A DNA stretch of 64,000 bases from Candidatus Saccharimonadales bacterium (GTDB lineage Bacteria > Patescibacteriota > Saccharimonadia > Saccharimonadales > Saccharimonadaceae), in contig JBDSSF010000003.1 of the NCBI GenBank assembly GCA_039928925.1, positions 1-64,000 on the forward strand, read 5' to 3'. The notes under the pieces were generated by a model that was not told the origin of the DNA, did not search any database, and worked only from the letters and a program-made list of their open reading frames with translations. Numbering within the stretch: position 1 is the first letter of the stretch; each line of letters starts with the position of its first letter. Both the position numbers and the translations under genes were made by a program. Of this stretch, positions 23,208 through 37,322 are shown in pieces.

Positions 23208-24713
23208 TTAATAGCCTGTGAAGTAGTCCGTTTTTACAGAACGTGCACCCAGACTTTTTGCGATTGTTTTTGTATGATTTACCATAATTGGCGGACCCGA
23301 GATATAGACTTGCCTTTCTTTAATATCAGGAATAGATGTATCCATTATTTCATGAGTAATGTAAGGAGACTTTATGTAGGCTATATCACTATACGTCTGA
23401 ACTTCGTCTGGTGTTACGATAATTATCTTAACACCACTACCTCTCAGTAGGTCTAGATATGCAATTTCCTGTATAGATGATGCACTGTAGAGCAGCGTAA
23501 TATCCCGAGACTGCTTGTCATGAATGAGCTGTCTAACATAACTAACAAAAGGCGTGATGCCAATTCCTCCAGCTATCCATAGTAGTGGTACCTTTAAGTC
23601 ACCTGGAAGTATGAAATCACCACTAATCTTTGTTGCAGAGACGTAGGCATTAGCAGGTAAGTTAAATAGTGTCTTTTTAAAGCTACTATGACGCTCGGGA
23701 ATTTTAATACCAAACCTTATATCATCATCGGATGGGCTTGATGTAATTGTAAACATACGACGCTGGCCACGACTATCCGGTTTTTCATGCGGTAATGTTA
23801 ACTCCATATACTGTCCTGCTATGTGTATGGGCATTGGTCCAATACTCTTAAGAACGAATTCATATGATGTTGGGGTAAGTTGTAGCTTCTCAGCAAAGCT
23901 CATCTTAACTGCCCTACGTGTTCCCCATGCAAATGCAACTATATTACCAATGATCAGGGCCAGTTGCGGTGTCATGGATACACTACCAATAGTTATTGAT
24001 GTACTAAATAAAATGGCGACAATACTAACAACGGTTAACTGCTGCCAGCGTCGCGGTGGTAATGTTAGAGGTTCACTTAACATAACACCGGCGAAGTAAA
24101 TGACTGGCCACGATGTAAAGACTGTAACGATCGCAGTTCCAATAGAATCACCTGCCATAATATTGTGAATCGTAATTAATCCTACGGCTATTAATAGGAA
24201 CAGGCCACCTAACTTCAGATGTCGTGTTTTATAAAGTATGAGTAGGCTAACAACTACCGTTACTGGTAGTAGTGCGGGACTTGCTACCCACCATATAACA
24301 TATCCAACACCAGATAGAGTCGCAAAAAGCGCGCCAACACCTGCTGGATTAAATATATGTCTTCCACGGAATGTTAGAATATATTTTGAAGCAGTTGCCA
24401 CAACTGCAATCAAGATGAGTGGGGCTACATCAGCGATGCTAGATAACGGTGCAAGGATAAGTGCCAGTATAAGGCCTGTAATAATTGCCGACTCACCCTG
24501 CGGACGAATACCAAATATCAAGCCAAATAGCTTATTTGAACCATAGGATGAACCAACGAGCAAGAGGGAAGTCAGTAGCAAAGAAATGGGGGAGTAGGGT
24601 AGGTAGCCAATAAGTCCAAGCAAAAGTGATGTCGCTAAAAGTACCAAAAGTGATAATGTTAGCAACCTGTACATAGTTACTTTGCCCAATAAATTATCGA
24701 GCCAATCTTTCAT
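23208..24713 (-). CDS. NqrB/RnfD-like membrane domain fused to ferredoxin-NAD(P) reductase
   Basis: A 501-residue fusion. Residues about 12-270 hold some ten membrane helices of the NqrB/RnfD type, with HIFNPAGVGAL matching the conserved HxFNPA block. Residues about 275-501 are an FNR module: RMFTITSSP for FAD binding, IAGGIGITPFVSYVRQL for NAD(P) binding and YISGPPIMV near the end. It should pass electrons from NAD(P)H in the cytosol through the membrane. It overlaps apbE by 4 bp and is last in a three-gene operon. Confidence 0.87.
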   Translation of the reverse strand: MKDWLDNLLGKVTMYRLLTLSLLVLLATSLLLGLIGYLPYSPISLLLTSLLLVGSSYGSNKLFGLIFGIRPQGESAIITGLILALILAPLSSIADVAPLILIAVVATASKYILTFRGRHIFNPAGVGALFATLSGVGYVIWWVASPALLPVTVVVSLLILYKTRHLKLGGLFLLIAVGLITIHNIMAGDSIGTAIVTVFTSWPVIYFAGVMLSEPLTLPPRRWQQLTVVSIVAILFSTSITIGSVSMTPQLALIIGNIVAFAWGTRRAVKMSFAEKLQLTPTSYEFVLKSIGPMPIHIAGQYMELTLPHEKPDSRGQRRMFTITSSPSDDDIRFGIKIPERHSSFKKTLFNLPANAYVSATKISGDFILPGDLKVPLLWIAGGIGITPFVSYVRQLIHDKQSRDITLLYSASSIQEIAYLDLLRGSGVKIIIVTPDEVQTYSDIAYIKSPYITHEIMDTSIPDIKERQVYISGPPIMVNHTKTIAKSLGARSVKTDYFTGY

Positions 24714-25567
24714 GTAAATAATTCCCCTTTTAAATCTTGTGAGTACTCTACTGTACCATTAGCATACATCTGAACGTACTGAAATTGCCAATTAGAGAGT
24801 AATTCCTTGGCTGGTACAAAAAATAGTGCAGTTGCTAAGCCGTCGGCAATCATTGTTGTTTCAGCAATCACCCATGTCGCAACAATTTCTCGAACCGGCT
24901 GGTTACGCGTTGGATCAATAATATGATGCCAATCCCCCCATTGACGACGATTACTAGCAGAAGCACAGAGACTAGCATTTTGTAACACTACCTTACCGAT
25001 TACTTCCGTGCTATTATTTGGATTTTCAAATCCAACTTGCTGCTCATCATCACCCCGATGACGTATGTCACCGCTAGCATCAATGACATAATTTTTTATA
25101 TTATTGTTTTCTAGTACTTTCCCAATCATATCTACCGCATAGCCTTTGCCTGCTGCCCCGATATCGAGGACTATAGGCCTGCTGGTAGTAACAGTTGTTC
25201 CCTGCCACTTCATAACATCATCCCAGTCTGGGGTTACCTCAAGTGATTGGGGCTTTAGAGAATATTCCTTATCATACCCAGCTTGCTCCAGTACTCGTCC
25301 AATAAGCGGCGTTACCCTACCGCCTGAAATCTCATATAGCTTTTTATAAAACGGGATAATATCGATCGCTGAATCCGGAAACTCAAATACACCAACCTCT
25401 CTTGCCAGCTGCCGAACCAAAGATTCGTCACGAAACCGCGAATAGATACTATCAAAATCATCCAGTGACGTACAAATCACTTGTTTTAACTTTTGAGTTA
25501 ATTCTATGTCTGTTTCAATTAACCAGTTAGTCCCAAGCGCAGTGAGCGTATAGCTAGGCCTTAGCAT
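24710..25567 (-). CDS. apbE: FAD:protein FMN transferase ApbE
   Basis: A 285-residue ApbE: FDSIYSRFRDESLV near residue 38, GAAGKGYAVDMIG near 139 (the nucleotide/metal-binding block), DASGDIRHRG and HHIIDPTRNQPV. It attaches FMN to a Thr/Ser of target proteins. It lacks a signal peptide or lipobox, so it would act in the cytosol, unlike most ApbE proteins. Its ATG lies inside the end of the FMN-binding gene (14-bp overlap), indicating coupled translation. Confidence 0.92.
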   Translation of the reverse strand: MLRPSYTLTALGTNWLIETDIELTQKLKQVICTSLDDFDSIYSRFRDESLVRQLAREVGVFEFPDSAIDIIPFYKKLYEISGGRVTPLIGRVLEQAGYDKEYSLKPQSLEVTPDWDDVMKWQGTTVTTSRPIVLDIGAAGKGYAVDMIGKVLENNNIKNYVIDASGDIRHRGDDEQQVGFENPNNSTEVIGKVVLQNASLCASASNRRQWGDWHHIIDPTRNQPVREIVATWVIAETTMIADGLATALFFVPAKELLSNWQFQYVQMYANGTVEYSQDLKGELFT

Positions 25568-26045
25568 CTTGCTTAATCATATCAAGTGCATCATTAAAAC
25601 CATTTGATGTTAGCGATGATCCAGCAACTCGGGAGAGGCTTATCGAATTAACGCTTTTGCCGACGACTGCTGACTTAAATTCAGAAGCAAATTGGGACTG
25701 ATAATACTCGGAATCCCTATTGTTTGCATTTTGACTCACCGTTACATCTGTAACAACATTGCCTGAAATAGTGGCACTCACACTGATAGATTCTGTGCCA
25801 CCAGGAGTTTCATAGCTACCAGTCACTTGATAGGAACCATCTTTATATGAAGATGTGCTTGTCGTAGAACTCGGTGTTGTATTTGATTGACTGGCGCTCG
25901 CTGTAGTTGAGCTATTGTTTATAGCTACGCTGTCACTGTTTGCGCCACTTTTACCGAAATATACAATTCCTGCCGTTACTCCAGCGAGCACGACGACGAC
26001 GATAATCGTTATTAATGTTTGATTTACCTGCCTAGGCTGATCCAA
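25554..26045 (-). CDS. Membrane-anchored FMN-binding domain protein
   Basis: A 163-residue protein with one N-terminal membrane helix (about 10-30), a Ser/Thr-rich linker (about 38-64) and an FMN-binding domain of the RnfG/NqrC type. GSSLTSNGFNDAL near residue 143 is the likely flavinylation site, matching the S-x-x-T attachment pattern. It starts with TTG, supported by GGAG 7 nt upstream. First gene of the operon with apbE and the NqrB-FNR fusion. Confidence 0.85.
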   Translation of the reverse strand: MDQPRQVNQTLITIIVVVVLAGVTAGIVYFGKSGANSDSVAINNSSTTASASQSNTTPSSTTSTSSYKDGSYQVTGSYETPGGTESISVSATISGNVVTDVTVSQNANNRDSEYYQSQFASEFKSAVVGKSVNSISLSRVAGSSLTSNGFNDALDMIKQDAKA

Positions 26046-28343: not shown

Positions 28344-28826
28344 TTAGTGTTTCGAGTGATCCGTATGCTTGGGTGTTTTAGTAGCAAGTACGTCGAAGAT
28401 AGCCAGAATCAATGCTGCTGTAATAATTATTATTTTATACTCTACAAAAAACGTATATACTTGCTGCCCTACGCCATCAATAACTAATGCCGATCCAAGT
28501 GGCTCAAGCAAAAGAGCAGTTGCAAGCATTGCAAACGCAGCTGCACCAATAATCCTCTGAAGTGGTTGCCTGTATGTAGGACCACTAAATAGTAAAATAA
28601 CTGCCGGCAGAAGAATGAGCGAAGCCGCAACAACACTTTTTAGTGGTGGTGCAATTAATATAACTCCTGCTCGTTCAATAATTGGCGTTAGGTCCCCTAC
28701 CCATAACGTACTGAGCATGCCACCCGCTGCAAGTGCTAGGCCAAGAACACCAAATCGACGTTTCGTAAAATAGGCTGTCGCGAATAGTACGGCAATAATT
28801 ATGATAAATATAATAACAAAACTCAT
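28344..28826 (-). CDS. Polytopic membrane protein, unknown function
   Basis: A 160-residue protein with about five hydrophobic segments and a His/Lys-rich tail (KTPKHTDHSKH). The number and spacing of helices are CvpA-like (CvpA is a colicin V production/envelope protein), but no motif confirms this. It overlaps the DUF192 gene by 4 bp (ATGA) and is translated with it. Confidence 0.7.
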   Translation of the reverse strand: MSFVIIFIIIIAVLFATAYFTKRRFGVLGLALAAGGMLSTLWVGDLTPIIERAGVILIAPPLKSVVAASLILLPAVILLFSGPTYRQPLQRIIGAAAFAMLATALLLEPLGSALVIDGVGQQVYTFFVEYKIIIITAALILAIFDVLATKTPKHTDHSKH

Positions 28827-29308
28827 AGACCAAAACCTTCCTTTTTTGTTTCATCAAACGTAGCGACACCATCTACCTTAATAGCTTTTTGCATAGCAGT
28901 CCCTGCTGGTAATTCTACCACGTAGCGCGCTTCCTTATTAGGTGTAAATATTGTATAGGGATAGCTATCGGGTGGCGCATTTGTAACGATATAAACTACT
29001 TTTTTATCCTTATCAAGCCAAACAATATCTATCGGATAATTCATATCCTTCATCCATATTGGCCACTTTCTATCACTATCGAATACGAAAAGCAGTGCTT
29101 GGTTGGAGCGGAGATCTGTCGTACCCGAGAGCCCCTTCTCACGCAATGCTTCAGTGTTTGCAATCTGAGACGTGTATATACCATCCCCAATACGTATTGT
29201 TGTGTGGGGTTGTAGTTGAGGCCACACGATATATAGAGCCGCAAGACCGACAAGCAACAAGATAAATATAATCATTACCCACGATAGTGATTTCTTTTCC
29301 GTGTTCAT
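28823..29308 (-). CDS. DUF192 family protein, membrane-anchored
   Basis: A 161-residue protein: N-terminal membrane helix (about 8-29), then a DUF192 domain with EKGLSGTTDL, the WMKDMNYPIDIVWLD block and VVELPAGTA. The domain sits outside the membrane; its function is unknown, although it is very widespread. Its start overlaps the stop of a five-codon reading frame that begins right after the promoter. Confidence 0.87.
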   Translation of the reverse strand: MNTEKKSLSWVMIIFILLLVGLAALYIVWPQLQPHTTIRIGDGIYTSQIANTEALREKGLSGTTDLRSNQALLFVFDSDRKWPIWMKDMNYPIDIVWLDKDKKVVYIVTNAPPDSYPYTIFTPNKEARYVVELPAGTAMQKAIKVDGVATFDETKKEGFGL

Positions 29309-29357: not shown

Positions 29358-30263
29358 TTATGCGCCAACTTTGTCTTTTTTGTTGCGACGCTTAGCATTA
29401 ATTTCGATGTACTCGATAATTTTTGTTGCGATATCACGTCCTGTGACAAGTTCTGGTGTTTTAATACTTGCTGACGAGTTAACCTCTAAAACGAGTGGTC
29501 CTCGCTCACTGCGCATCATATCGACGCCACACATTTGAAGACCCATAGCACGTGCAGCTTTAATAGCAGTCTTTGTCTCTTCTTCAGTTAGCTTAACAGT
29601 TGATCCGATACCTCCCTGGTGAGTATTGCTGCGGAAATCATCGTCAAGACTTTGTCGCTTCACACTAGCAACGACACGACTACCGACAACAAGTGCACGT
29701 ATGTCAGTACCGGCAGATTCTTTAATAAATTCCTGAACCATAAAGTTTACACCTTCAACATAAAAAGCCTGCATAACTGCTTTTGCAGCTTTTGGAGTCT
29801 CAGCAAGTACGACTCCATTGCCGTGCGTACCACGAGCCACTTTAATAATAAGTGGCGTTCCACCTGCAAGTTCTACGACATCTTCAAAGTTTGCTGTTTC
29901 ACGCGCAATAACTGTTTTTGGGATTCCTACACCAGAACGTGCAAGAATTTGATAAGCACGCAACTTATCTCGTGAACGATTAATAGCAAGAGAGGTTGCG
30001 ACAGTAAATGCACCTTGAGCCTCGAATTGACGAACAACAGCCGTACCATACTTTGTATACGACTGAGCAATTCGTGGAATAATTGCATCGAAGTTATCAA
30101 GTGATCGGCCCTTATAACGAATGACTGGTTTATCTTTCTCGATAGAAACATAGCAGAGCGCATAATTAATCACTTGAACCTCATGCCCGCGTGCTCGTGC
30201 TACCTCTTTAAGACGTTTTGTCGTGTAATTTGCGCTGCCCTTGGAAAGAATTGCTATTTTCAT
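29358..30263 (-). CDS. rimK: RimK-type ATP-grasp ligase
   Basis: A 301-residue protein like ribosomal protein S6 glutamate ligase: MKIAILSKGSANYTTKRL, the ATP-binding ARGTHGNGVVLAE loop, QEFIKESAGTDIRALVVG and VDMMRSERGPLVLEVNSS with the metal-binding Glu/Asn. RimK adds glutamates to the C-terminus of S6 and can make poly-glutamate. It overlaps the retropepsin-like gene by 4 bp, the known RimK/RimB pairing. A Lys/Arg-rich tail follows the core. Confidence 0.9.
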   Translation of the reverse strand: MKIAILSKGSANYTTKRLKEVARARGHEVQVINYALCYVSIEKDKPVIRYKGRSLDNFDAIIPRIAQSYTKYGTAVVRQFEAQGAFTVATSLAINRSRDKLRAYQILARSGVGIPKTVIARETANFEDVVELAGGTPLIIKVARGTHGNGVVLAETPKAAKAVMQAFYVEGVNFMVQEFIKESAGTDIRALVVGSRVVASVKRQSLDDDFRSNTHQGGIGSTVKLTEEETKTAIKAARAMGLQMCGVDMMRSERGPLVLEVNSSASIKTPELVTGRDIATKIIEYIEINAKRRNKKDKVGA

Positions 30264-30754
30264 GCATCTCTCCCTTCTTCCTCGTCCTGAGGAAAATCAA
30301 TGTTATATTGTCTTTTAAGCGTAAGACGATCAAGGCTCGTTTCAGAAGAATCCACCAGGAAACGGTGATTAAGTAATTTGCGACCAATTAATATCGGATA
30401 AATTTTCTTTGAGCGATCAGCAAGAGTAAATCGCGCTTGAAAAACTTTTGGCCCCAACTTAACCTTAAGTCGTACTTCGAATCGTTCTTCTTCATGGCCA
30501 AAAGAATTTGAAACAGTCACTTTCGTAAAATCTGTTGTCGTAAGATGTTTCGACATATTCCCACAAACAGGATGCCCGCCCAAAAGATCAAAGTGAAGCT
30601 CGCCGTCAGTAACGGTAATGTTTGATGCGTGTACCGCAGAACGATATGCACCGGTATCTGTTTTGGCTGGAACATTCGATGCATCGGTATCAAGAAAACT
30701 AAGCACTTCAGAGCGCCCAATAATTACTTTGTGGAAATCGTATTTTGAAGCCAT
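30260..30754 (-). CDS. RimB-like retropepsin-type protease (ATP-dependent zinc protease family)
   Basis: A 164-residue protein with a single aspartic protease half: AKTDTGAYRSAVHA supplies the DTG (33-35), and ILIGRKLLNHRFLVD the C-terminal strand. Such proteins pair with RimK; in Pseudomonas RimB trims glutamates added to S6. A single DTG means it must act as a dimer. CATAAT 6 nt before the ATG suggests a leaderless message. Confidence 0.87.
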   Translation of the reverse strand: MASKYDFHKVIIGRSEVLSFLDTDASNVPAKTDTGAYRSAVHASNITVTDGELHFDLLGGHPVCGNMSKHLTTTDFTKVTVSNSFGHEEERFEVRLKVKLGPKVFQARFTLADRSKKIYPILIGRKLLNHRFLVDSSETSLDRLTLKRQYNIDFPQDEEEGRDA

Positions 30755-30792
30755 GGTTTTATTATGAATGAGTTTGTAATTTAATAAAAGAC

Positions 30793-30821
30793 TTGATTAT
30801 ACTACCATAATTTTATATAAT
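30793..30821 (+). promoter_or_regulatory. Promoter of the BacD-like ligase gene, leaderless
   Basis: TTGATT (30793-30798) and TATAAT (30816-30821) are exactly 17 bp apart, and the ATG is 7 nt after the -10 box. This is the clearest complete leaderless promoter in the window. Confidence 0.7.
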
Positions 30822-30828
30822 TTGCAAT

Positions 30829-32064
30829 ATGTCTCACATAGTTATCGTTGGAAGAAAATTCTCAGAGTTAGCTGACAGGCTTACTCAGAGTGGCGATACT
30901 TATACACTACTTCAAGATGTTAAAAAGACGAAATTTCCTGATAAAAAATTCCGTCGTCGAATAGTTGCAGACTTTTCTTCGAATGAGTCCTTACTTGCAA
31001 CAGTTAAGACACTTCATGATAATGATCCTATTGACGCCGTTATTTCCCTTTACGAAAATTATATACTTCCTACTGCTATTATTGGTGAGTTTCTCGGTGT
31101 ACCGCATCTACCTGTTGCGAGTGCTGAAGCATGTACGGACAAGTTTTTAATGCGCACGTTATTTAATGGCGCTTCAGAAAAAATAAGTCCAGACTTTGCT
31201 ATTGTTCAGTCAATAGATGATGTACTTGCATTTGCTCATAGTCATTCATTTCCTCTCATCTTAAAGCCTGCAAATCTTGCAAAAAGCTTACTCGTAACTA
31301 AGAGCAGCGATATTACAGAGCTAAGAAATAACTATGAAAAAACTATGACGATGATCGATAAGATTTACGAAACATATGCACCAAATCGTACGCCAAAACT
31401 TATCGTTGAAGAATTTTTAGAAGGCTCGATTCATTCAGTAGACGCTTACATTGGCGAGGATGGAATACCCCTCGTTCTTGATAATGTCGTTGATTATCAA
31501 ACAGGATACGATATTGGCTATGATGATAATTTTCATTATAGCCGCATTCTCCCATCAAAACTAAGCGCTAATGACCAAATTGCACTTCGGCACTGTGCAG
31601 AGATCGGTATCAAAGCACTTGGCATGAAGAACTCACCTGCTCACGTGGAAGTTATCATGACAGTTGATGGTCCAAGAATTGTTGAGATTGGCGCACGTAA
31701 TGGCGGTTACCGTGGCCGCATGCATCGACTTGCAAATGGTATTGATATTTTAGGTGCCGCAATTGAGGTAGCACTCGGCAAGAAACCCTCCATCATCGCA
31801 TTAAAAAACGAACCTTGTGCAGTTCTTGAACTTTTTCCAAAACATCCTGGAATCTACATGGGCATACATAACGAATCTACCCTACGCTCACTTTCCTCGC
31901 TTGAATATCTCTCAATCAAGGCCACACCTGGTAGATTCGTTGGCAAAGCAGGAGATGGATACAAGATGTGCACTGTTGTCATCTTACATAATACTGACCA
32001 AGCTAAGTTTGATAAAGATATTCTCACTATGCAAAATGATATCTTTATAGATACAACTTCATAA
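30829..32064 (+). CDS. ATP-grasp ligase of the BacD/carnosine-synthase type
   Basis: A 411-residue ATP-grasp enzyme: N-terminal Rossmann-like domain, PLILKPANLAKSLLV (nucleotide loop), VEEFLEGSIHSVDAYI, and the signature AHVEVIMTVDGPRIVEIGARNGG with the metal-binding Glu residues. Relatives join amino acids to amino acids or to other acids. It is divergent from the rimK pair and convergent (no gap) with two further ATP-grasp genes. Substrate unknown. Confidence 0.87.
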   Translation: MSHIVIVGRKFSELADRLTQSGDTYTLLQDVKKTKFPDKKFRRRIVADFSSNESLLATVKTLHDNDPIDAVISLYENYILPTAIIGEFLGVPHLPVASAEACTDKFLMRTLFNGASEKISPDFAIVQSIDDVLAFAHSHSFPLILKPANLAKSLLVTKSSDITELRNNYEKTMTMIDKIYETYAPNRTPKLIVEEFLEGSIHSVDAYIGEDGIPLVLDNVVDYQTGYDIGYDDNFHYSRILPSKLSANDQIALRHCAEIGIKALGMKNSPAHVEVIMTVDGPRIVEIGARNGGYRGRMHRLANGIDILGAAIEVALGKKPSIIALKNEPCAVLELFPKHPGIYMGIHNESTLRSLSSLEYLSIKATPGRFVGKAGDGYKMCTVVILHNTDQAKFDKDILTMQNDIFIDTTS

Positions 32065-32883
32065 TTATTTCTTAGATAATGTCTCAATAAAATCAATCAT
32101 TGCATCTTCAATATTAATACCAGTTACGTCACTTATTATGATACCTGGTGATGGGTTACATTCAAGTACCTGAGGGCCTGCAGATGACATGATAATATCG
32201 ACACCTGCTATATCAAGCTCCAGAGCTGTCGCTGCACTGACCGCGAGAACTTCTGTGGCGCGATCTATCTTAACGGGCCTACCAATTGCTCCTAAGTGAA
32301 GGTTTGCCCTGAAGTCACCTTCAGCTGCTTGACGCTCCATAGCAGCAATAACAATACCGTTAACGACAACCACACGCAGGTCCCTACCTAATGATTCGGC
32401 TATATACACTTGTGCAAGAAGACCTAGATCAGGTGTGAAATCTTCTTGTTTATGAACAAGAACTATACCTTCACCATGCGTCCCCGCTGCTGGCTTTATG
32501 ATAAACGGTAAACCTAGCGTATCTGCGCAGTCCTGAAAATGAGATCCTAGTGATAGCTTTACTGTTAAAGGTGTCTCAACTGAATGACGCAAGAAAGCGT
32601 CATAGGATAATGACTTATCACGAGATGTACGCCATGAGTTCACCGTGTTGATAACTGTAGCCCCACCAAGTGATGCTCGTTCAAGGGCAATAATTCCTTT
32701 TGCGTTTTGCTCTGGAGCAATTCGAGGGAGGATAATTGTATGATCAAAAAATGCATAGGGCACCGACAATGCGTCGTCGAGTGATAGCACAGCATATTCC
32801 ATGAAACGCTTTTCCATTAATAATCTTAGCTGATTCACGACCCGACCATCAGGCGATGATGACAATAATACAATCTTATTCAT
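32065..32883 (-). CDS. RimK-like ATP-grasp ligase, second gene of pair
   Basis: A 272-residue ATP-grasp protein: the KPAAGTHGEGIVLVHK nucleotide loop, AESLGRDLRVVVVNG, FRANLHLGAIG and GVDIIMSSAGPQVLECNPSPG with the catalytic Glu and Asn. The ATG at 32883 lies inside the end of the upstream ATP-grasp gene (8-bp overlap), so translation is coupled. It abuts the convergent BacD-like gene stop to stop. Shares the RimK fold but is clearly diverged from the 29.4 kb copy. Confidence 0.88.
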   Translation of the reverse strand: MNKIVLLSSSPDGRVVNQLRLLMEKRFMEYAVLSLDDALSVPYAFFDHTIILPRIAPEQNAKGIIALERASLGGATVINTVNSWRTSRDKSLSYDAFLRHSVETPLTVKLSLGSHFQDCADTLGLPFIIKPAAGTHGEGIVLVHKQEDFTPDLGLLAQVYIAESLGRDLRVVVVNGIVIAAMERQAAEGDFRANLHLGAIGRPVKIDRATEVLAVSAATALELDIAGVDIIMSSAGPQVLECNPSPGIIISDVTGINIEDAMIDFIETLSKK

Positions 32884-33772
32884 GTTTTGCTGTAGCAGTC
32901 TCATGTAAATAGCTGGCGAGACCAATTAATTCATCAGATAGTACTCCTGGAACTGCCCTGATACCGAAATTGAAATTTGCTTCTAGAATGATCGCCTTAT
33001 TAGTTTGCTTATTTACCATAACATCCACTCCGCATATTTCACGCCCGAGAGCAAGCGCGGCCCTAACTGCAAGATCCTTGTGTTCAGTAGAGACAGAATT
33101 CATATCTAGATATTCCTTATCACCACCCTGTGAAATGTTATTTCGATGATCACTGGCTTTACCAATACGACTATAGATACATTCTACCTTGCCTCCGAGC
33201 ACAATCACCCGAAGGTCTCCGTCATTTGGTATAAATTCTTGAGCGATAAATTTTGTTTGATTATGATCATTAATTACTTTGTCTAGTTCATCATGATTTT
33301 TTACAAGAAAGTTATCATTACCACTATTTCCTGTGATCGATTTTACGATAGCTGGATAACCAAACTTATTTTCAATAGCATCAATGAGATATTGTCCTTG
33401 ACCAAAGATAGATGATGGAATTGAAACATCTGAGAATACAAACTGCATATACTGAGTCAGTTTACTTATATGTTGAAACTTTGCTGTATCGGTATTTAGA
33501 AAACGAACACCGTGATGTTTTAAATACAGTGCAACTGCGTTACGTTCATATTCGTATCCCTGAAAATCACGAATATACACAAGATCAAAAGATGATAAGT
33601 CTTTGTTCCCGACTCGCACACAGCTATACCCATCGCGAAGTTCAAAGATAAGTTCAGCGTAAGTAATAAGAATGTATGTATCCTTACCAATGGATGCTAA
33701 GCCATTATATGTTTGAAAAGCCTCGCTCTTATCATCCCGCTTGTCACCTTTTAAAATTGCGATCGTCGCCAT
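32876..33772 (-). CDS. RimK-like ATP-grasp ligase, first gene of pair
   Basis: A 298-residue ATP-grasp protein with KSITGNSGNDNFLVKN as the nucleotide loop (with extra Asn/Ser instead of the usual G-rich form), QEFIPNDGDLRVIVLGG and GVDVMVNKQTNKAIILEANFN. The end of the final motif (EANFNFGIR) keeps the Glu and Asn. It starts one base after the stop of the large membrane protein gene (TAA-T-ATG), so the three genes form one operon. Confidence 0.88.
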   Translation of the reverse strand: MATIAILKGDKRDDKSEAFQTYNGLASIGKDTYILITYAELIFELRDGYSCVRVGNKDLSSFDLVYIRDFQGYEYERNAVALYLKHHGVRFLNTDTAKFQHISKLTQYMQFVFSDVSIPSSIFGQGQYLIDAIENKFGYPAIVKSITGNSGNDNFLVKNHDELDKVINDHNQTKFIAQEFIPNDGDLRVIVLGGKVECIYSRIGKASDHRNNISQGGDKEYLDMNSVSTEHKDLAVRAALALGREICGVDVMVNKQTNKAIILEANFNFGIRAVPGVLSDELIGLASYLHETATAKHE

Positions 33773-33773
33773 A

Positions 33774-36125
33774 TTACGTTTCCTTACGAGTTAATTTATA
33801 AACAACCGAACCAATGAGTAACAGTGCAATGAGCGTCAACAAGGCAAAACTATAACCTGATAGCATCCAGAAAACTGCTAAAATTACACCAACCGTTCCC
33901 CATATACTTAATAGGCGGCGAGATGTTACGAGCCCTAAGACTAGGAGGCCGGTATGCTCTAGTAGGAATACGAGTCTATATGGAAGTGCACCTGCCACAA
34001 AACCTTCGCCAATTGCCATAATTGCACCAAACATGCTCAGAATTGATAGCCCAATAATAAGTCGTATTTTAGCATCTTGTCTGCGCCCACGAATATAGTA
34101 CATATACGCTAAGCCAGCGAATGCAAGTCCCCACCACTGGGAATAAATAAGAGAATCAATGTCTGGCACCGCCACAGCGACTAAGCGTTGTAGTGCCAAA
34201 GTACCAATAATAATTGAGGCGTCTATGAAAGCATACTTTTTTAACATGAAACCTTCGCTAAGAAGGAGAAGGCTAATTAAAATAAGAACACTTGTTGCAA
34301 CAAAAACATGACCTAAATCTTGTCCCAAAACTTCTCCAATGGCAATGACGCCGGAGAAAGTGACCGCAGACCAGAACATATAACTTGCATGTATTTTCTT
34401 GCCAATAGAAAGTAATAACCAATTTCCAGCATAAAATAAAACAAACACTACCCAGGCGAGTACGATTATTAACCAGTCCGATGGTATTCCGATAAAATCT
34501 AGGACTTTGCTTATTGTTAATATACCAAGCAAATTTGCAATGATAAGAAACTGTGACGTTTTTTCAATATAAACGATCGCATACATGATAACTGCTACGA
34601 TGATAAGAAGTGCAGTTATCCATCCCTGTGATGTACTCGAGGCAGTAAATATCAATCCCTCAACAAGAAACAGTCCGTATGCTAGAACTGGTAATCCATT
34701 TTTAAATCTATCGGTCAGTAATTTAATTCTTAGACGCTGGTAAAGTACGACAGCGGACATGACAAGATATATAAGTGCGACCCAGTGTGTAGCAAGTCCT
34801 GGCTGAAGAACTTCCGTCGTTATGAGTGCTGGCAAAATAAGCAGTGAGTAAAGCCCAAAAAAGAGGATTCCGGAACGGTGCGTACTTACGGCTACCACAA
34901 TACTCGTGACTAGTAACACGGTCAACTGATAACTCATGATAAGTGCTGTGTTGTAAAGACCCGATGCAAAGAGTGGTGCAACTACTAATAACGATAGTCC
35001 TAGCCAGAGCCATGTTTCGTCACTACTATCAGCTTTATTATTATTAACACTCATGACTGAAATAAATATCTGCGCAACACTTACAGCTGTCAGTGCTAGT
35101 CCCACCATCCACCACTCGTGGGATAGATCATACGTAATCAAAAGTACGAATAGCGTTAATAAGCCCCGCATAATGAGTAATGCGCTAGACTTCACTATTT
35201 TTGATAATGCAGATAATGCAACAGCGGCATAATATAAAGTGCTAAGTCCAACGATAATTTCATAGTCAGTAATTGTTAAATCGATACCGGCAAAAATACT
35301 TGCGAGTAATGTTATTGCGACAATCCAGTCACTACTGACTTGAATTGGCTTTGTAAATACAGCCGGTAACCATTTGGTGCGAGCTATGGATACAATTGTC
35401 ATGAGAGAACCGAAGCCTATAAGCACTACAAAGTACCATAGTAGACCTGAACGCATTGCAGCAACTCCAGAAGTACTGAGTGAAATCATAAACACGACTG
35501 CAAAATAAGCAACAATCTGGCTCTGGAGACGGACTGTTGCAATGACAAATGCTACCACTCCGATGAGCGATGTAAAGAGCCAGCAAAATGATGCGTTATC
35601 AGGAAGAATGTAGTTATACATGACAAGCCCTGTAAAAGGTAAAAGAGCAAGACCAGTCCCGGTAAATGCCACTGCAGCCGGACGTAGTTTTGGTGATTTT
35701 TCATAAAGAATTAGCCCTGTAACATAAAAAATGAGTGTGATTAACCACGTGCCAATAAACTTCACATCACCCGGAAGTGAAGTGCCTATAAAAAGTGCGG
35801 CGGCGGCGACAAGCAGAAAGCTCGCAACATATAGCACAATATTAATATTCTGCAGTTCCTGTTTCTTTTTATTAACGACTTGATCAACTGGGCTCACTAG
35901 TGCCGGCGATACCATACCTTCGTATTGAAGATCATCAATTAGAGCGGCAATCGCTGGCTCGCTTGGTTGCCCTGTATTACCCTCGCGAGCTCGCCAGCCA
36001 TCCCAATAACCTTGCGCATAACTTTTGCCTGTGTAGTCGATTGGTGTCTTTTTATTACCTTTGATAATAAGCAGGACTACCAAAAAGATGATGCCTCCCC
36101 AGAATAGTAGTCCTAATAATGCCAT
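33774..36125 (-). CDS. Very large polytopic membrane protein, unknown function
   Basis: A 783-residue protein with one N-terminal helix, a soluble stretch (about 25-92, with YAQGYWDGWRAREG) and then some twenty hydrophobic segments to the end. The pattern resembles DUF2157/DUF2339-type membrane proteins, which have no assigned role. AAGGAG lies 11 nt before the ATG. The tight operon with two ATP-grasp ligases suggests it acts on, moves or receives their product; that is inference. Confidence 0.8.
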   Translation of the reverse strand: MALLGLLFWGGIIFLVVLLIIKGNKKTPIDYTGKSYAQGYWDGWRAREGNTGQPSEPAIAALIDDLQYEGMVSPALVSPVDQVVNKKKQELQNINIVLYVASFLLVAAAALFIGTSLPGDVKFIGTWLITLIFYVTGLILYEKSPKLRPAAVAFTGTGLALLPFTGLVMYNYILPDNASFCWLFTSLIGVVAFVIATVRLQSQIVAYFAVVFMISLSTSGVAAMRSGLLWYFVVLIGFGSLMTIVSIARTKWLPAVFTKPIQVSSDWIVAITLLASIFAGIDLTITDYEIIVGLSTLYYAAVALSALSKIVKSSALLIMRGLLTLFVLLITYDLSHEWWMVGLALTAVSVAQIFISVMSVNNNKADSSDETWLWLGLSLLVVAPLFASGLYNTALIMSYQLTVLLVTSIVVAVSTHRSGILFFGLYSLLILPALITTEVLQPGLATHWVALIYLVMSAVVLYQRLRIKLLTDRFKNGLPVLAYGLFLVEGLIFTASSTSQGWITALLIIVAVIMYAIVYIEKTSQFLIIANLLGILTISKVLDFIGIPSDWLIIVLAWVVFVLFYAGNWLLLSIGKKIHASYMFWSAVTFSGVIAIGEVLGQDLGHVFVATSVLILISLLLLSEGFMLKKYAFIDASIIIGTLALQRLVAVAVPDIDSLIYSQWWGLAFAGLAYMYYIRGRRQDAKIRLIIGLSILSMFGAIMAIGEGFVAGALPYRLVFLLEHTGLLVLGLVTSRRLLSIWGTVGVILAVFWMLSGYSFALLTLIALLLIGSVVYKLTRKET

Positions 36126-36170: not shown

Positions 36171-37277
36171 CTAAAAAATACCGCGCTTTTTTGCACCATC
36201 AAACTGCTCAAGTAGGTCGCGTTGTTTTTTACTCAACTTGACTGGTGTATCAACAACCATGCTCACTATGTGCGGCCCACGAGATGAACTTCGCATATGC
36301 GGAACACCATGACTAGACAACTTAAAGTCAGTACCGCTCTGTGTACCTGCTGGAATTTTCATACGGACCTCACCATCAACAGTATCGATATCTATTTCAG
36401 TACCAAGCGCTGCATCAATCATACTGATATGTTCTTCTGACAGGATTATGTCACCTTCACGTGTAAACTTTTTATGTGCCTTTACTCGTATATGAACATA
36501 CAGATCACCACGTGCACCACCACCAATCGCTTCACCGTGTTCTTTTAGACGAATAGTAGCTCCGTCATCAATACCTGCAGGCACTTTTAATTTCATAGCC
36601 TGTTTTCGACGCTCAGTCCCCTTACCCTTACAAATAGTACAGACTTTTTCTGGGATTTTACCTGCACCTTTACATGTTTCACAAGTGACAGCCTGTTGTA
36701 TTTGTCCAAAGATCGTATTCATCACACGAGTTTGCTGACCTGCGCCTTTACATGTTGGGCAGGTTTTCATACTGTAGCCAGGCTCAACAGTCGTTCCTTT
36801 ACAATGTGAGCACTCGTCGTCCATATCGAGGCTTATATCCTCTTCAACTCCAAACACAGCTTCCTCGAATGTTAGCTGGACCGTCGTCTCAACATCACGA
36901 CCACGACGAGGACCTCGATCACGCTGACCGCCGCCGCCGAAGAATTGACCAAAGATATCACCAAGTCCTCCGTCACCAAAATCAAAATTTACATTTTGAC
37001 CGTTAAAGCCCTCAAAAGGATTACCGCCGCTATAGCTACCTCCGCCTCCGCCAGAGTTACCGCCAACACCAGCATGACCGAACTGATCATATCTCTGACG
37101 TTTTTGTTGGTCCTTGAGAACCTCGTAAGCCTCGCCAATTTCTTTAAACTTAGTCTCATCACCACCTTCTTTATCAGGGTGGTGTTTTAGTGCAGCTTTG
37201 CGATAAGCCTTCTTAATTTCATCAGCACTGGCAGTTTTTGCTACACCAAGTACTTCATAATAATCGCGTTTACTCAT
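36171..37277 (-). CDS. dnaJ: Co-chaperone DnaJ
   Basis: A 368-residue type I DnaJ: J domain with HPD ([12 protein letters not shown], about 28-39), a Gly-rich linker, four CxxCxGxG zinc repeats ([31 protein letters not shown]) and the C-terminal substrate-binding domain. The start [11 protein letters not shown] at 37277 is the conserved one; two in-frame ATGs upstream are rejected. The -10 box ends 7 nt before it and a CIRCE-type repeat overlaps the -35, so it is under HrcA and probably leaderless. Confidence 0.96.
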
Positions 37278-37284
37278 TACCTCC

Positions 37285-37322
37285 ATTATAGGCAATTAGC
37301 ACTTAGCTGTCTAGAGTGCTAA
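37285..37322 (-). promoter_or_regulatory. dnaJ promoter with CIRCE operator
   Basis: CIRCE-type repeat TTAGCACTT-N9-GAGTGCTAA occupies 37296-37322 (one mismatch to consensus). On the minus strand the -35 TAGACA (37308-37313) lies within it and TATAAT (37285-37290) follows after 17 bp. Confidence 0.88.

Follow-up and report, generated by a model that had tools for sequence, protein, structure and literature searches.

A variable island of peptide ligases and peptidases beside rimK in Saccharibacteria and its possible role in editing C-terminal peptide tails

A 64,000-nucleotide stretch of Candidatus Saccharimonadales DNA (bases 1-64000 of contig C3, hereafter the window), taken from a 985-kb genome that is 98.6% complete, was analyzed for a cluster of peptide-ligase genes lying next to dnaJ. 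Four ATP-grasp ligases, a RimB-like retropepsin protease, and a polytopic membrane protein had been described here in a first-pass annotation, and open reading frame (ORF) calls and domain searches confirmed all of them. The alpha-L-glutamate ligase gene rimK (29358-30263, minus strand) overlaps the rimB-like gene (30260-30754, minus strand) by 4 bp. A 74-bp intergenic region (30755-30828), in which both promoters presumably lie, separates the rimB-like gene from a divergent BacD-like (ATP-grasp_4) ligase gene (30829-32064, plus strand). The latter is on the strand opposite to the other ligases and abuts the second RimK-family ligase gene, ligB (32065-32883, minus strand), tail to tail, an arrangement that corrects the first-pass annotation. 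The 8-bp overlap between ligB and the RimK-like ligase gene ligA (32876-33772, minus strand) exists when ligB starts at an internal ATG (32883); a TTG start would place its 5' end at 32925. ligA begins one base after the gene for the 783-residue membrane protein, here called MEMB (33774-36125, minus strand), and dnaJ (36171-37295, minus strand, from the ORF listing) follows as the left border. Three of the four RimK-domain genes of the genome fall within 4.3 kb, so their clustering is not due to chance. The fourth (~270 amino acids; G000:C2:17588-18118, L004) lies far from this cluster, beside a gene for a Clp-type ATPase.

RimK of the window has the Rimk_N and PF08443 domains, belongs to the RimK family by TIGR00768 (243.5 bits; cut-off, 143.4), scores just below the cut-off of the equivalog model PRK10446 (329.4 versus 331 bits), and matches the Pseudomonas aeruginosa RimK structure with an E value of 3.3e-93. 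Its partner matches PF05618 (57 bits; cut-off, 27) and carries the DTG motif present in all 24 free RimB proteins aligned. The NCBIfam equivalog cut-offs were not reached, either for RimB (44.8 versus 200) or for RloA3 (59.6 versus 210), and we therefore refer to the protein as RimB-like. Its N-terminus, MASKYDFHKV, has no hydrophobic leader, and no signal peptide is apparent. RimK is known to add glutamate to ribosomal protein S6, and RimB takes poly-Glu off S6 and stimulates RimK (PMC11957791). S6 of the window genome ends in RDDKEEE.

Alignment to solved structures of RimK and L-amino acid ligase indicated that ATP- and metal-binding residues are kept in all of the ligases, and by this measure all four look active. 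A tree of 91 ligase domains resolved four clades, namely RimK, ligB, ligX, and a large one containing ligA. LigB reaches the TIGR00768 cut-off (146.7 bits) and its clade is sister to RimK, whereas LigA (PF08443, 83.5 bits) falls below that cut-off (112.9) and belongs to a separate clade with support of 100/99. Seven residues (K144, R188, R202, N211, D250, E264, and N266) are invariant among the 28 members of the ligA clade. An AlphaFold model of LigA (predicted local distance difference test score [pLDDT], 89.7) gave RimK and ArgX/LysX as best PDB matches; ArgX and LysX join an amino acid to the C-terminal glutamate of a carrier protein. As first noticed from the sequence, the nucleotide loops of the paired ligases differ. 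That of LigB (KPAAGTHGEG) resembles RimK (KVARGTHGNG) in its THGEG/THGNG portion, and that of LigA reads KSITGNSGNDN, with SGNDN at this place. The BacD-like enzyme had been assigned to a BacD/carnosine-synthase type. This holds at the level of the ATP-grasp_4 domain (PF13535, 66.1 bits; cut-off, 27) and of the EIGARxGG motif, both shared with BacD and related L-amino acid ligases, and the nearest solved structures are L-amino acid ligase BL00235 and BacD. It does not hold at the level of the BacD equivalog NF053745 (42.3 versus 850 bits), the C-terminal domain LAL_C2 scores below its cut-off (16.3 versus 29.4), and the genomic partner of the enzyme is rimB-rimK.

Loci around rimK or the associated genes were read in relatives, 40 at first and then 20 more, with ORFs called and labeled by profiles. 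Fifty-four of the sampled loci contain rimK; they are a nonrandom set, partly picked for having matches, and their counts are not population frequencies. Unbiased frequencies were taken from 101 relatives. The window cluster represents one variant of a chromosomal island with a fixed layout that recurs throughout Saccharibacteria. The island runs from dnaJ through variable cargo to rimB and rimK, usually followed by a DUF192 gene and a small membrane protein gene. dnaJ is present in 48 of the 54 rimK loci, on the same strand in 47, and RimB is encoded in 49, abutting rimK in all but one. The cargo draws on a small kit (ligA in 23 loci, ligX in 22, a MATCAP-type peptidase in 24, and the BacD-like gene in 14), together with glycosyltransferase-like, VirB6-like, and acetyltransferase-like proteins. 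Among the 101 relatives, RimB was found in 78, MATCAP in 28, the BacD-like enzyme in 19, and MEMB in 14; 87 had a ligB match, mostly canonical RimK. Four genomes of the window's genus (the window, L095, L113, and L119) carry four different cargo sets.

The BacD-like gene lies beside rimB in the same orientation as in the window, divergent to rimB-rimK, in 13 of the 19 genomes with a homolog and at 16 of 19 GTDB loci. As far as a scan of 84,980 species shows, it is confined to Saccharibacteria (19 loci, with record titles that include Saccharibacteria and Nomurabacteria). Two ligase slots next to it are filled by ligA and ligB in the window and elsewhere by ligA and ligA, ligB and ligX, ligA and ligX, or a single ligase. 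Thirteen of the sampled loci encode RimB as a fusion with an accessory ligase, the fusion partners coming from the ligA and ligX clades; in ligA-RimB fusions, RimB is C-terminal in nine loci and N-terminal in three. At one locus (L092:1610-2902), an isolated half of a Mur ligase, similar to the C-terminal half of cyanophycin synthetase, lies between a ligA-RimB fusion and rimK.

The zinc peptidase in the islands of relatives matches PF08014 (MATCAP, tubulin tyrosine carboxypeptidase), and most members keep HExxxH plus a third ligand of the EEG type. A second family with HExxH (L095 and L090) is weakly related to MATCAP. MATCAP lies within 6.5 kb of rimK in ~21 of the 28 MATCAP genomes among the relatives, with fewer than one expected by chance. 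Other Patescibacteria classes encode proteins of ~800 residues in which a TIGR02291-type ligase is joined to MATCAP (HEIETH, QEG). Eight were examined (L251, L252, L253, L255, L256, and L258-L260; family libraries were run on two and our own profiles on the rest), and six of these also have a RimB-like middle domain, mostly without its DTG. The joining of ligase, retropepsin, and MATCAP in one chain is independent evidence that the three act in one pathway. Three RimK-positive genomes lacking RimB (G063, G090, and G051; loci L108, L109, and L111) have MATCAP and ligA directly before rimK. All four RimK-positive, RimB-less genomes have MATCAP (P = 0.012, rising to 0.09 on inclusion of two fragmented genomes), which gives only a hint that MATCAP replaces RimB there. 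In eukaryotes, MATCAP/TMCP enzymes shorten the C-termini of tubulin and also poly-Glu chains (PMC10499314).

Core and cargo of the island have diverged to different extents. Median identity across loci was 67% for RimK, 68% for DnaJ, and 63% for YebC, and 21-39% for the cargo (LigA, 28%; BacD-like, 39%; MATCAP, 21%), with RimB at 33%. rimK is near-universal and largely vertically inherited, and these values point to a different history, one of rapid exchange, for the cargo. RimK of the window shares 86-89% identity with its counterparts in several other genera but only 66-68% with those of its genus mates, although DnaJ of the window is 76-85% identical to theirs; rimK must therefore also have been exchanged at times. 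Across 23 loci, distances of the BacD-like enzyme correlated with those of RimB (r = 0.84, P = 0.0001), and RimK distances followed neither (-0.07 with the BacD-like enzyme and 0.06 with RimB). Despite the 4-bp overlap with rimK, RimB thus behaves as a partner of the accessory ligases. When only the 18 closest BacD-like loci are considered, the BacD-like/RimB correlation falls to 0.61 but still exceeds those of the other two island pairs.

Taking these data together, we hold with middling confidence that the region is one form of a tail-editing island shared across Saccharibacteria, in which a glutamate tail made by RimK would be extended or capped, and trimmed, by the cargo enzymes. RimK would lay the base tail on S6, its putative acceptor, and/or as a free peptide. 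LigA, LigB, and the BacD-like enzyme would add other residues to it or make a peptide that feeds the tail. RimB, joined in relatives by the MATCAP-type zinc carboxypeptidase, would cut the tail back and so render the mark reversible. Homology to RimK/RimB and to MATCAP/TMCP is what suggests that the island both writes and erases C-terminal tails, and since the ligase clades found in the slots beside the BacD-like gene vary from species to species, each species would have a tail chemistry of its own. The expectation of peptide tagging that came with the first description of the locus is supported by the RimK-RimB core and by several ligases that are predicted to be active, with catalytic residues kept in all. 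More tentatively, the island may be the bacterial equivalent of the tubulin tail code, with species-specific combinations of ATP-grasp writers (RimK plus LigA, LigB, LigX, or the BacD-like enzyme) and RimB/MATCAP erasers editing the C-terminal tail of S6 or another protein and with cassettes exchanged between lineages in front of a largely vertical rimK.

Several observations weigh against tail editing. No MATCAP match was found in the window genome. S6 ends in glutamate in 43 of 57 RimK-positive and 8 of 13 RimK-less genomes, which is no clear difference. The amino acid specificity of the ligases cannot be read from their sequences. Within the 18 closest BacD-like loci, RimB distances also correlate with those of RimK (0.42) and DnaJ (0.63); the coupling to the BacD-like enzyme is therefore partly a matter of shared ancestry and linkage, and the idea that it is exclusive was rejected. 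Finally, one 99% complete genome (G039; L250) has dnaJ, ligB, ligX, and the BacD-like gene in a row and lacks RimK and RimB. Such ligases can therefore act without RimK, and this locus favors a product that is partly an independent peptide.

The G039 locus is also one of the points in favor of the strongest competing explanation, in which the product of the cargo ligases is a free oligopeptide. The BacD-like enzyme would form a dipeptide, to be followed by poly-Glu or cyanophycin-like chains for storage, osmotic balance, or signaling; the peptidases would recycle the product, and RimK would act on free peptide and not on S6. The BacD-like gene indeed has its closest matches among ligases of free amino acids, the Mur-ligase half at L092 recalls cyanophycin synthetase, and the title of PDB entry 5zct calls RimK a poly-alpha-L-glutamate peptide synthetase. 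However, the nearest folds to LigA, RimK and ArgX/LysX, act on protein or peptide carriers, the homologs of RimB and MATCAP are known as protein-tail peptidases, and RimK is near-universal and largely vertically inherited. We regard a free peptide as a possible but doubtful account of the island.

A gene-turnover hot spot beside dnaJ, with cargo of unrelated functions, is unlikely. It would fit the glycosyltransferase-like, VirB6-like, and acetyltransferase-like cargo and the differences in cargo between genomes of one genus, but the kit is narrow and repeating, as the counts above show, ligase-RimB fusions recur, and ligase-retropepsin-MATCAP fusions are found in other classes.

The place of MEMB in the island bears on a third alternative. 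Its 783 residues and polytopic nature stand as first described; the 20 helices then counted do not, since its AlphaFold model (pLDDT, 65.7, from 9 sequences) has ~25 long helices. MEMB has no Pfam or NCBIfam match, no transglutaminase match, and no fold match in the PDB at E ≤ 0.001. Full-length homologs are 782 to 1114 residues long and share ~23% identity. Of 10 genomes with both genes on one contig, 8 have MEMB inside the island. A special unit of the ligase pair with MEMB, as first proposed, is not borne out in relatives: in six of these eight islands MEMB is a neighbor of dnaJ, and in two (the window and L117) it adjoins a ligase, one MEMB island has no extra ligase at all (L118), and most ligase islands have no MEMB, which is found at a distance from rimK and in rimK-less genomes as well. 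MEMB could serve as a platform in the membrane or be a passenger linked to dnaJ. Tagging of a surface or exported compound by the ligases, with MEMB as transporter or flippase, is very unlikely: its position one base upstream of ligA and its frequent presence in the island speak for such a role, but its usual place beside dnaJ, its absence from most islands, and its lack of a match to any transporter family or fold speak against it, and no neighbor or fold supports the surface compound suggested earlier.

RimK-type ligases paired with peptidases were reportedly predicted by Iyer et al. in 2009 (cited in PMC4431377) as amidoligase/ATP-grasp peptide-tagging systems, and part of the island picture may have been anticipated there. 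Already known are RimK-RimB pairs, RimBK fusions, and rlo operons, whose retropepsin is secreted (PMC12239564). A search of one literature library (RimK/ATP-grasp with Saccharibacteria/Patescibacteria, and bacterial MATCAP) found no paper combining RimK with Saccharibacteria and no description of the island, of the accessory ligase clades, or of the bacterial MATCAP link. The Pseudomonas RimA/B/K system and RimBK hybrids (PMC11957791, PMC10092738, PMC4741518) are like the island in having RimK and a DTG retropepsin in overlapping genes and in having RimB-ligase fusions. The island differs in adding extra ligases, the BacD-like enzyme, and MATCAP peptidases, in that its RimB fusions involve ligases of the ligA and ligX clades, with RimB often C-terminal, and in that its RimB type follows the BacD-like enzyme and not RimK. 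In the rlo operon (RloA/B/C) of Pseudomonas, genes for a retropepsin, an ATP-grasp ligase, and a membrane protein likewise lie together, and the fusion protein of other Patescibacteria enters this comparison with its ligase of the TIGR02291 type. RloA is secreted, however, and RloB is an inactive transglutaminase with seven helices; membership in the rlo group was rejected because RimB has no leader and MEMB, with its ~25 helices, has no transglutaminase match. The tubulin tail code (TTL/TTLL ligases; MATCAP/TMCP, CCP, and VASH peptidases; PMC10499314) is alike in its working, in that ligases add C-terminal residues, including glutamate, and MATCAP-family zinc carboxypeptidases remove them. 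The island is bacterial, has no tubulin, and uses RimK-type and not TTL ligases, so the likeness is one of working and not of membership.

Our results suggest that Saccharibacteria, tiny bacteria of a parasitic type, write and erase short peptide tails in a more elaborate way than is known from bacteria. Their genomes are very small, yet up to five peptide ligases are found at one locus and are swapped quickly. If the proposed function is correct, ribosome tagging by RimK would be only the base layer of a variable and reversible peptide code, and the region would tie the RimK/RimB chemistry of bacteria to the MATCAP peptidases of microtubules, offering a possible bacterial origin and a simple model of how tails are edited. 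With modules this clear, the substrate and the chemistry lend themselves to direct tests.

Downstream of rimK, the window has the two usual neighbors, a DUF192 protein (28823-29308, minus strand; PF02643, 86.8 bits) and a small hydrophobic membrane protein with no Pfam family (28344-28826, minus strand), which recurs 3' of rimK in many Saccharibacteria with a median identity of 22%. Elsewhere in the window (23208-26045, minus strand), a row of genes looks like a flavin-based electron-transfer set. It encodes a polytopic membrane protein whose C-terminal domain is an NAD-binding oxidoreductase, the FMN transferase ApbE, and a small Ser/Thr-rich protein that is secreted.

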